A stretch of DNA of 42,371 bases from Candidatus Nomurabacteria bacterium (GTDB taxonomy: Bacteria; Patescibacteriota; Minisyncoccia; Phycocordibacterales; UBA9973): the NCBI GenBank assembly GCA_016186435.1, contig JACPLQ010000012.1, forward strand, positions 1 to 42,371. The letters run 5' to 3'. Made by a program: the position numbers and the translations under genes. The notes under the pieces are model-generated. The model had not been told where the DNA came from. It saw nothing but the letters and a program-made list of their open reading frames with translations, and searched no databases. Positions 94 through 42,345 of the stretch are shown piece by piece; positions within the stretch are counted from its first letter, which is position 1, and the number at the start of each line of letters is the position of its first letter.

Positions 94-949
94 AAGGATT
101 CATGAGCCCAGCTGAAGACGATCTGCGAGAATAAATAAAAGATAAAAAATAAACTGACTCATAACGGTGAAGTCCGGTTGTATGTGGTAAAATATATACA
201 ATGGATAATATCGTGGGAAGATTACAATCTGCATTTCCAGCACATCAGCTTGATGTGATTATAGGGTCATTGTTAGGTGATGCTCGGCTTGAATGCCGGT
301 CTAAAGGAATACGAGCAAAATATACAGCTCGCTTTAGAGTGCATCACGGGTATAAACAGAAAGAGTATGTCTGGTGGAAGTATGAGGTACTTAAGAATTT
401 AGTTTCAAAAGAGCCAAAAGAAATATCTTGGACAAACAAGAAACGAAATCTTCACGAAGTATCGTGGTACTTTCATACAAAAAGCTTGAAAGACTTCGGA
501 ATCATTCACAACATTTTTTACAAAAATGGAGTGAAAAAGTTTCCTACAGAAATACTCCCGATTTTTTCTGACAGAATGTTGGCTGTGTGGTATATGGATG
601 ATGGTTCCAATAATCACGGAAACGTGACTTTGAGCACCCACTCATTTTCTTTAGAAGATCAAAAAATAGTTGTCGACTTTCTAAAAGAAAAATATCAGAT
701 ATCACCAACAGTTGTTAAGGATAGAAGTCAATGGAAAATTTCAATTGGCAGTCACGATTATGATCGTTTCCTCTCAATTGTTTCTCCATTTGTTCCAAAA
801 GCAATGAACTATAAGATTGATAATCCCCGTATCGACTTGTCTGTGAAAATGGACAGAGTGGGCTAGGAGGCTTGCTAACACGTCAGTTCCAGAATAGGAG
901 AATTTTGGAAAAGGTATAGTCAGTACCGTTAGTAATAATGGAAGGAACG
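94..949 (+). mobile_element. Group I intron (insertion after E. coli-equivalent U2584) containing a LAGLIDADG homing endonuclease ORF
   Basis: 5' exon AGCTGGGT pairs with downstream GCCCAGCT, giving a P1 with U.G at the splice site. P7-like pairing actgact (153-159) / agtcagt (918-924). S-like element aaggtatagtc at 911. Ends in G before tcagaccgt. P4-P6 not resolved by eye. Confidence 0.75.
201..866 (+). CDS. LAGLIDADG-family homing endonuclease (intron-encoded)
   Basis: 221 aa ORF with LDVIIGSLLGDARL and MLAVWYMDDGSN motifs; lies inside the 23S intron. Confidence 0.85.
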   Translation: MDNIVGRLQSAFPAHQLDVIIGSLLGDARLECRSKGIRAKYTARFRVHHGYKQKEYVWWKYEVLKNLVSKEPKEISWTNKKRNLHEVSWYFHTKSLKDFGIIHNIFYKNGVKKFPTEILPIFSDRMLAVWYMDDGSNNHGNVTLSTHSFSLEDQKIVVDFLKEKYQISPTVVKDRSQWKISIGSHDYDRFLSIVSPFVPKAMNYKIDNPRIDLSVKMDRVG

Positions 950-958
950 TCAGACCGT

Positions 959-1319
959 AGAGAAGTTTTTAATAGACTTTTCTACAATCTGAATCCTCAG
1001 GGGAAAATAAAACTGTTATAAAACTGAAACCAACCATGTGCATTAAATTGCACCCACGGCGGCTATGTATAGAAATATATATATAGGCAAGCTAACTTAT
1101 ATCGGCGAAATCCTAATTCACAAAAAATGAATGGACAACGCCGAGGGAAGGATTAGTGACTAGTAACTAGTTGCCAGTGCCTAGTAGTAAATTACTAGAA
1201 CCTAGAACCTATAAACTAGAACCTAATTCGCCCGTAGAGACTGAATGTTAGCGTTCTCCAAAAGAAATTTTGAAGAATATGTCACAGTCCAATCCTCACA
1301 GTAATGTGAAACGCAGATG
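959..1319 (+). ncRNA. Second, ORF-less group I intron in 23S rRNA (insertion after E. coli-equivalent U2593)
   Basis: Lies between exon-like tcagaccgt (950-958) and cgtgagacagg (1320-). Contains gagactgaatg ... aagaatatgtcacagtcc, an R/S-like P7 pairing GACTG/CAGTC. Ends in G. Confidence 0.65.
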
Positions 1320-12275: not shown

Positions 12276-12391
12276 CCTCACTCACCCCTCCCCAAATCCT
12301 CCCAACCCCTCCTGACCTCCCCTTATCAAGGGAGGCAAATGGTTTCCCCCTGACAGGGGGGAATATACAAGGGGGTTTGCAGGGGAGGAGG
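12276..12391. repeat. GC-rich inverted repeat (CTCCCCTTATCAAGGGAGG / CCCCCTGACAGGGGGG family)
   Basis: Strong similarity to 18935-19035, including cctccccttatca(a/g)ggg(g)aggcaaat.gtttccccctgaca.gggggaata. Confidence 0.7.
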
Positions 12392-12399
12392 TTCTCTTG

Positions 12400-12707
12400 T
12401 TGCGGGGCCACGAATCGAACGTGGGTCTTAAGGTTATGCTTACCACTTCAGTTTTCACTGCTTCAAATTGAATTTGTGGTCTGGACTATACCATCTCCTT
12501 TCTTAAGAATAATTCTCAAAATTAAGGAGCTCGTCATCTAGTCTCTACACATTTATTTCCAACTATGTTGGAAAATTTAGCTCGGAATTGTCTTTCTGCT
12601 AAAAGCAGAGAGGATTTCTCCGAATTTGACGAGTGCGCACCAATAGGTTTCCCTAAAGGGGGCCCATATTGTTTGAGCCTTACGAGATGCCTCTTCTCTA
12701 CCCCGCT
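12400..12707 (-). tRNA. tRNA-Met(CAT), probably initiator, split by a group I intron in the anticodon loop
   Basis: Minus-strand exons GCGGGGTAGAGAAGAGGCATCTCGTAAGGCT + CATAACCTTAAGACCCACGTTCGATTCGTGGCCCCGCAA. Anticodon arm TAAGG-CTCATAA-CCTTA. Position 1 (A) x 72 (A) unpaired, as in initiators. Confidence 0.85.
12439..12675 (-). ncRNA. Group I intron (IC3-like), inserted between U33 and C34 of tRNA(CAT)
   Basis: Minus strand: TCAAATTCGGAGAAATCC, TGTAGAGACTAGATGACGAGC, GGAGATGGTATAGTCCAGACC. These resemble the P4-P7 core of the Azoarcus tRNA-Ile(CAU) intron as I recall it. U.G P1 (GGCU/GGCC); ends in G. Confidence 0.85.
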
Positions 12708-13036
12708 ATTAAGGCATAATATATTAGATCTTTAAAATATGCAAGTTGTTTGCTATAGTAAACCTATGATATAATACATACTAAAGATATTGTTTGCTCA
12801 ATTCAGATAAATAGGATTCACAAAAAAAGAATTAATACAGTCTTGAATTTTTGGAAAAAACTGCTACACTTACGAAAGAGTCAATTTCGAAAGCCTTATT
12901 ATGTAAATACGCACACGAGTAAAGTTTACGATAACTATGAAAAATATTATGGTGTATGTAGATTAATAGTAAGAAGAGGAAAGGACTTAAAGTATCGGAT
13001 GCTTGGTCTGATTGATGGGGTAAAAAGTAGTATTTT

Positions 13037-42076: not shown

Positions 42077-42161
42077 TTGTGGGCCTTCAATCCGTCTTCG
42101 CGTAAAGCTACGACGAGACGATGAAACATGAAGGATATCCTGCTCGGGACACTTAAAACAT

Positions 42162-42312
42162 TTTGAAAAATGATCGGTATTCGGACTTGTTCCCTCTCGC
42201 CAAATGGCGTATCAGGACTTACCGTAGCGGCACTGTACCGGAATCCCCGCCTTGACTCGTCAACGCGAGGCAGGTCACCGGTTTCCCCAATTCACTTCTT
42301 TAATTTTTCAAA
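42162..42312 (-). promoter_or_regulatory. Cobalamin riboswitch aptamer (minus strand), with a palindromic insertion
   Basis: Minus strand: 10-bp P1 TTTGAAAAAT/ATTTTTCAAA; GGGGAAACCGGTG...ATTCCGGTACAGTGCCGCTACGGTAA...AAGTCCGAATACC, matching the GGGAA-GGTG-TCC-CCGC-CTGTAA-AGTCNGGATACC order. Confidence 0.82.
42246..42274. repeat. Palindromic repeat inserted in the riboswitch aptamer
   Basis: CCCGCCTTGACTCGTCAACGCGAGGCAGG; relative at 33907. Confidence 0.8.
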
Positions 42313-42345
42313 GGGAACATTTTTAGTGTATACTGGTTTTATCTG

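Follow-up and report, generated by a model that had tools for sequence, protein, structure and literature searches.

Two adjacent group I introns separated by nine bases of 23S rRNA in a Candidatus Nomurabacteria bacterium

The 23S rRNA gene at the start of the window, the whole 42,371-nt stretch of Candidatus Nomurabacteria DNA analyzed here, contains two adjacent group I introns, one inserted after the equivalent of E. coli position 2584 (window positions 94-949) and the other after 2593 (959-1319). Judged from sequence, these are very probably two introns of different architecture, with nine bases between them, in the peptidyl-transferase part of the 23S rRNA gene of a CPR (Parcubacteria-type) bacterium, a resident L2593 intron and a mobile L2584 intron, each of which would be excised independently of the other.

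The contig starts at window position 1, 93 nt upstream of intron 1. The 23S rRNA text breaks off at GAGCTGGGT (85-93) and picks up again at CGTGAGACAGG (1320 onward), leaving an insert of 1226 nt (94-1319) within the gene. The nine missing rRNA bases are present inside this insert as TCAGACCGT at 950-958, directly after G949. This is the sole copy in the whole window, and by chance about 0.002 exact copies would be expected in a 1226-nt insert, or 0.0005 with a G in front. The exon ends are bases that we take to be U2584 and C2594 of E. coli, counted from the conserved GUCGUGAGACA, whose last base is A2602. The three exon segments, all on the plus strand, are thus a 5' segment (1-93, E. coli ~2492-2584) ending in GAGCUGGGU, the micro-exon UCAGACCGU (950-958, E. 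coli 2585-2593), which contains U2585, and a 3' exon (1320-1620) beginning with CGUGAGACAGG (2594 onward). A search with 23S models, as proposed in an earlier note on this DNA, returned an RF02540/RF02541 clan match on the 5' segment and an RF02541 match of 216 bits at 1356-1600. Joined, the exons read AAAAGGTACGCGAGCTGGGT-TCAGACCGT-CGTGAGACAGGTTGGTCTCCTATC, which differs from an intron-free relative (L044) only by G/A at 2588 and a handful of changes in the flanks. The joining restores H93 through pairing of GACC with GGUU; the compensatory nature of this helix had been pointed out before and is correct, and the same pairing is common to relatives. The coordinates given earlier for the insert, the exon ends, G949 and the micro-exon all check. 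No other 23S segments were recovered from the window's own assembly by a search that was insensitive, as it also missed the 23S piece known in the window. At the other end of the contig, a cobalamin riboswitch (RF00174, 38.6 bits) was found at 42155-42336 on the minus strand, which is unexpected in such a reduced genome.

Two introns with different cores

Intron 1 (L2584; 94-949, plus strand, 856 nt) ends in an omega-G at 949. Its internal guide sequence (IGS), GCCCAG (106-111), pairs with the exon sequence CUGGGU (88-93) and places G106 opposite U93 at the splice site, just the P1 with a U.G pair that had been described earlier. The strand UGA (103-105) forms P10 with U950, C951 and A952 of the micro-exon, and both P1 and P10 are present in 12/12 homologues. 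Comparison of the homologues placed P3 at AACUGAC (152-158) with GUCAGUU (882-888), P4 at ACGGU (164-168) with AUCGU (210-214), and P7, the G-binding helix, at GACU (834-837) with AGUC (918-921). All twelve homologues share P3 (AACUGAC/GUCAGUY), P4 (ACGGU/AUCGU), P6 (GGG..CCC), P7 (GACU/AGUC) and P8, and they conserve a P9 that covaries among them. P1, P4 and P7 are invariant, and are therefore conserved but unproven by covariation; P3 is mostly without variation. In the window, 44 nt with P7.1/P7.2-like hairpins separate P7 from P3'. On inspection, the corresponding interval of the homologues (~44-55 nt) could fold into a pair of hairpins similar to those of subgroup IA introns that have P7.1/P7.2. 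A candidate P7 at 153-159/918-924 was rejected, since the homologues show 152-158 to be P3 and P7 to be 834-837/918-921.

An intact ORF of 221 aa (201-866, plus strand) lies within intron 1. It begins in P5/P4, covers P4', P6 and the 5' strand of P7, and stops after the latter. It was identified as a two-motif LAGLIDADG_2 homing endonuclease (PF03161, 1.7e-41; I-SceI, 7.8e-13), with acidic residues in both motifs (GSLLGDARL and WYMDDGS). Among the intron 1 homologues, the ORF is full length in some, truncated in G026 and L042, and absent from G007, G152 and G232; these states correspond to the graded decay that homing introns usually go through. I-SceI, the endonuclease of the omega intron, is likewise a two-motif LAGLIDADG monomer, and its alignment with the window ORF covers 194 residues including both motifs. 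I-SceI acts at another rRNA site, L2449, whereas the window ORF is predicted to cut intron-minus alleles at the junction of GAGCTGGGT and TCAGACCGT.

Intron 2 (L2593; 959-1319, plus strand, 361 nt) contains no ORF and ends in an omega-G at 1319. Its IGS, GCGG (1059-1062), pairs with CCGU (955-958), with G1059 opposite U958 at the splice site, and the strand CACG (1055-1058) forms P10 with CGUG (1320-1323). P1 with its U.G pair, P10 and the omega-G are present in 32/32 sequences compared. P1 comprises only 4 bp. The IGS of these 32 distinct L2593 introns is GCGG (GCGA in one), located ~70-270 nt into the intron and directly preceded by CACG. P3, formed in the window by GCUAAC (1091-1096) and GUUAGC (1247-1252), shows compensatory changes among homologues (GCUAAC/GUUAGC, GCUGAC/GUCAGC, GUUGAU/AUCAAC and others), and the last pair of P7, GACUG (1239-1243) with CAGUC (1285-1289), alternates between G-C and A-U (12/20). 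P3' comes within a few nucleotides of P7, and intron 2 therefore lacks P7.1/P7.2. The two introns thus differ in architecture and are not recent copies of each other. Two other arrangements of the 5' splice site of intron 2 were rejected. A splice after C956 (with a C.A wobble) would cost the mature rRNA a conserved GU, and a long pairing of UCAGACCGU with ACAAUCUGA, considered as the splicing P1, sets an A opposite U958; the latter was retained as a separate conserved antisense element, described below.

A search with the group I intron model RF00028, also proposed in the earlier note, gave a match to intron 2 under the 50-bit gathering score (31.6 bits, E 6.6e-6, at 1034-1311), while intron 1 of the window was not convincingly detected (13.7 bits, E 1.6). 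An ORF-less homologue of intron 1 in L062 gave a weak match (25.6 bits, E 0.006), again under the gathering score. Homologues of intron 2 scored 31.7-40.7 bits in L062 and L058, below that score, and 62.3 bits in L063, above it.

Two further elements were observed in the window. An initiator-tRNA-like gene (GCGGGG...CTCA / TAACC...CCCCGC) at 12388-12714 on the minus strand, which ARAGORN did not report, has its anticodon loop interrupted by a strongly scoring group I intron (79.5 bits with RF00028, 12462-12685). The 23S-5S spacer holds a 351-nt element (1676-2026) with a perfect 22-bp inverted repeat at its ends, which the genome contains once; similar elements, also with terminal inverted repeats, lie within the L2593 introns carried by L015 and L036.

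Contacts on the nine shared bases

The contacts of the two introns divide the micro-exon between them, with U950-C951-A952 in P10 of intron 1, G953-A954 free and C955-U958 (CCGU) in P1 of intron 2. As these contacts just fit side by side and do not overlap, both introns can act. In the proposed mechanism, each intron would leave independently via the two-step guanosine pathway. The micro-exon would first be the 3' exon in the splicing of intron 1, with UCA in P10, and would also supply the 5' exon for intron 2, with CCGU in P1 and its U.G pair, and ligation would restore the order 2584-2585-2593-2594. Splicing at both junctions, and the order in which it would occur, are inferred.

The inserts might instead be intervening sequences removed without religation, in the manner of RNase III processing, which would leave the 23S rRNA fragmented and the 9-mer lost. 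Intervening sequences are common in bacterial 23S rRNA and in CPR, as covered in the main text of PMC11270868. However, exon ligation is implied by the P10 pairings and the omega-G conserved on either side, and the 9-mer has universally conserved residues and is identical in all seven genomes that carry both introns. This reading is very improbable.

Alternatively, the two introns could cooperate such that exon skipping dominates, the 9-mer being omitted from a fraction of the rRNA that would then be discarded. Skipping between tandem group I introns has been reported in Coxiella 23S rRNA (34-nt exon) and in phage Twort, according to PMC10136302. Here, a reading of the sequence shows that the P10 strand UGA of intron 1 forms 0/3 pairs with CGU (1320-1322) and the IGS GCGG of intron 2 forms 2/4 pairs with GGGU. 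The guide sequences thus misfit a junction of U93 with C1320, so that skipping should be disfavored; were its product the main one, U2585 would be lost. We consider dominant skipping highly unlikely.

Within intron 2, the conserved antisense element UCUGAAUCC (988-996, plus strand) is complementary to the exon bases GGGU (90-93) and UCAGA (950-954) on the two sides of the exon-exon junction to be formed. Its core UYUGAAY (988-994 in the window), situated between the 5' splice site and the IGS, is present in 32/32 L2593 introns within an otherwise variable stretch, and a helix of this size arises in ~3% of shuffled introns. The pairs of the helix cross those of P1, so the helix would be an alternative fold or a pseudoknot, and because the element spans the L2584 junction, the full helix could form only after the departure of intron 1. 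The four antisense pairs upstream of the L2584 junction are intact in 25/25 single-intron genomes versus 4/7 double-intron genomes. The probability that all three exceptions would be doubles is 35/4960 = 0.007 if the genomes are independent, which they are not. A role of the element in setting splicing order, relaxed in double-intron genomes, is a lead only. More speculatively, and with considerable doubt, nine nucleotides may be close to the shortest exon that two group I ribozymes, or two endonucleases with ~9-bp half-sites, can share, with the antisense element of the L2593 intron setting splicing order and being relaxed where the L2584 intron invaded.

Intron-plus and intron-minus alleles in relatives

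Sixty relatives were searched with the 3' exon, giving matches in 47, and named genomes were searched by protein with the intron 1 ORF, which yielded the reciprocal, L2584-only state. The L2593 intron alone, with GAGCTGGGT-TCAGACCGT contiguous, was found in 25 relatives, from which 25 distinct L2593-only introns were collected. Within the same genus or order, loci with both sides readable show GAGCTGGGT-TCAGACCGT unbroken, then one intron of ~280-580 nt, then CGTGAGACAGG; the exceptions with an extra intron, among such loci searched with the 3' exon, are the window, G007 and G026. One relative (L035) reads TCAAACCGT at its uninterrupted L2584 junction. The converse state, with only the L2584 intron and TCAGACCGT-CGTGAGACAGG contiguous, was seen in L039 (Ca. 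Liptonbacteria) and L041. The L2584 intron likewise occurs alone in L037, L040 and L042, but with the loop altered to TGTAAAACAGG. In L044 neither intron is present and all three segments are contiguous (TCAAACCGT).

Both introns were found in seven genomes including the window, always with exactly TCAGACCGT in between. The lengths of introns 1 and 2 are 856+361 nt in the window, 298+272 nt in G007, 497+275 nt in G026 (contig 22), 879+610 nt in G356 (Ca. Zambryskibacteria, L036), 877+492 nt in G169, 313+392 nt in G152 and 307+405 nt in G232. These genomes come from several families of the order, and are few and related. A misassembly of adjacent introns is unlikely, since six other genomes share the arrangement. 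The earlier proposal of two separate insertions, after 2584 and after 2593, with a 9-nt exon between them is thus supported, most decisively by intron-minus alleles at each site, and also by the two different cores and by the six other genomes. A single large intron or twintron spanning 94-1319 with a chance 9-mer, which the adjacency of the inserts and the poor recognition of intron 1 alone by Rfam might suggest and which the earlier note had argued against, is refuted anatomically and scarcely credible, because each insert stands alone at exactly one junction elsewhere, has its own P1, P10, P3-P9 and omega-G, and the 9-mer would be expected by chance only 0.002 times.

The L2593 intron was found in essentially every close relative with a readable site, while the 5' junction and P1 pattern of the L2584 intron was detected in 10/397 genomes of the order (a reversed control pattern occurred in one genome). 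This distribution marks the L2593 intron as the widespread resident, to which the L2584 intron has been added sporadically; in the proposed mechanism, the latter would be a mobile element encoding an I-SceI-like endonuclease. Intron 1 of the window is 84%, 87% and 89% identical to those of G356, G152 and G007, respectively, versus only ~69% for intron 2 in the same genome pairs. This higher identity fits a recent lateral spread of intron 1, though its lower divergence may be due in part to a core that evolves more slowly or to selection acting on the ORF.

Several loci showed additional features. The altered loop of the three L2584-only relatives (TCAGACCGT-TGTAAAACAGG instead of CGTGAGACAGG; L037 980-995, L040 3748-3763, L042 2936-2951) departs by three changes from a loop that is normally universal, and may be a site that resists the L2593 intron. 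The G026 bin holds two different 23S 3' ends on contigs 6 and 22 (L064 and L063), the first or the second carrying both introns and its counterpart the L2593 intron only, reflecting either a second operon or contamination. In G007 (L043, 1-980), a third group I intron near L2500, with its own LAGLIDADG gene, lies upstream of the L2584/L2593 pair. In L038 (480-1390), GATGTCGGCT is followed by an L2584-type intron core and the rRNA exon 2512-2584 that should lie in between is absent, which is either two introns fused through deletion or an assembly problem.

Significance and relation to known systems

Collectively, these findings indicate that nine bases can suffice for an exon of bacterial rRNA, within a region that ranks among the most conserved of the ribosome and with neighboring, non-overlapping stretches of the exon read by two ribozymes. 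Natural alleles with none, either or both of the introns make splicing order, exon skipping and minimum exon length directly testable. Alignment-based rRNA annotation may score such regions as one insertion, dropping U2585.

Introns in CPR rRNAs, which the earlier note had mentioned, are well described. Tsurumaki et al. (2024; PMC11270868) reported CPR rRNA group I introns with LAGLIDADG genes and, in line with the claim that L2593 is a known intron site, listed site 2593. Their survey resembles the window in covering the same radiation and the 3' part of 23S, with LAGLIDADG genes and both ORF-bearing and ORF-less versions. The 23S ORFs at the sites named in its main text are mainly LAGLIDADG_1, whereas the window ORF is LAGLIDADG_2. 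That main text names sites 1917, 1931, 1952, 2593, 2604 and 2657; a search of it turned up neither site 2584 nor a micro-exon. A literature search for L2584 introns found nothing, and "L2585" in PMC9002315, considered as an intron site, is a lichen sample number. L2593 introns are known at the same site from cyanobacteria and archaea (PMC1995217, PMC6125680). The one from cyanobacteria possesses P7.1/P7.2 and those from archaea are of the IA3 type, whereas intron 2 lacks both P7.1/P7.2 and an ORF.

Short exons between group I introns also have precedents. According to PMC10136302, the 23S rRNA gene of Coxiella burnetii has two group I introns of different subgroups around a short exon, as in the window. 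That exon is 34 nt and its skipping was observed, whereas the exon of the window is 9 nt and its guides argue against skipping; the skipped exon of phage Twort is 23 nt (PMC10136302). A precedent in micro-exon size is fungal SSU rDNA, where S1506 and S1516 group I introns that co-occur in one gene, for example in Physconia perisidiosa, lie ~10 nt apart (PMC1299323). Those introns reside in eukaryotic nuclear rDNA, and their spread by reverse splicing between neighboring sites has been argued (PMC1299323), whereas the introns of the window differ in architecture. Neither the presence of introns in CPR rRNA nor that of short exons flanked by group I introns is therefore new, and the 9-nt exon is a new extreme; given the CPR introns, the L2593 precedents and the ~10-nt fungal spacing, the arrangement is an extreme case and not a new kind.
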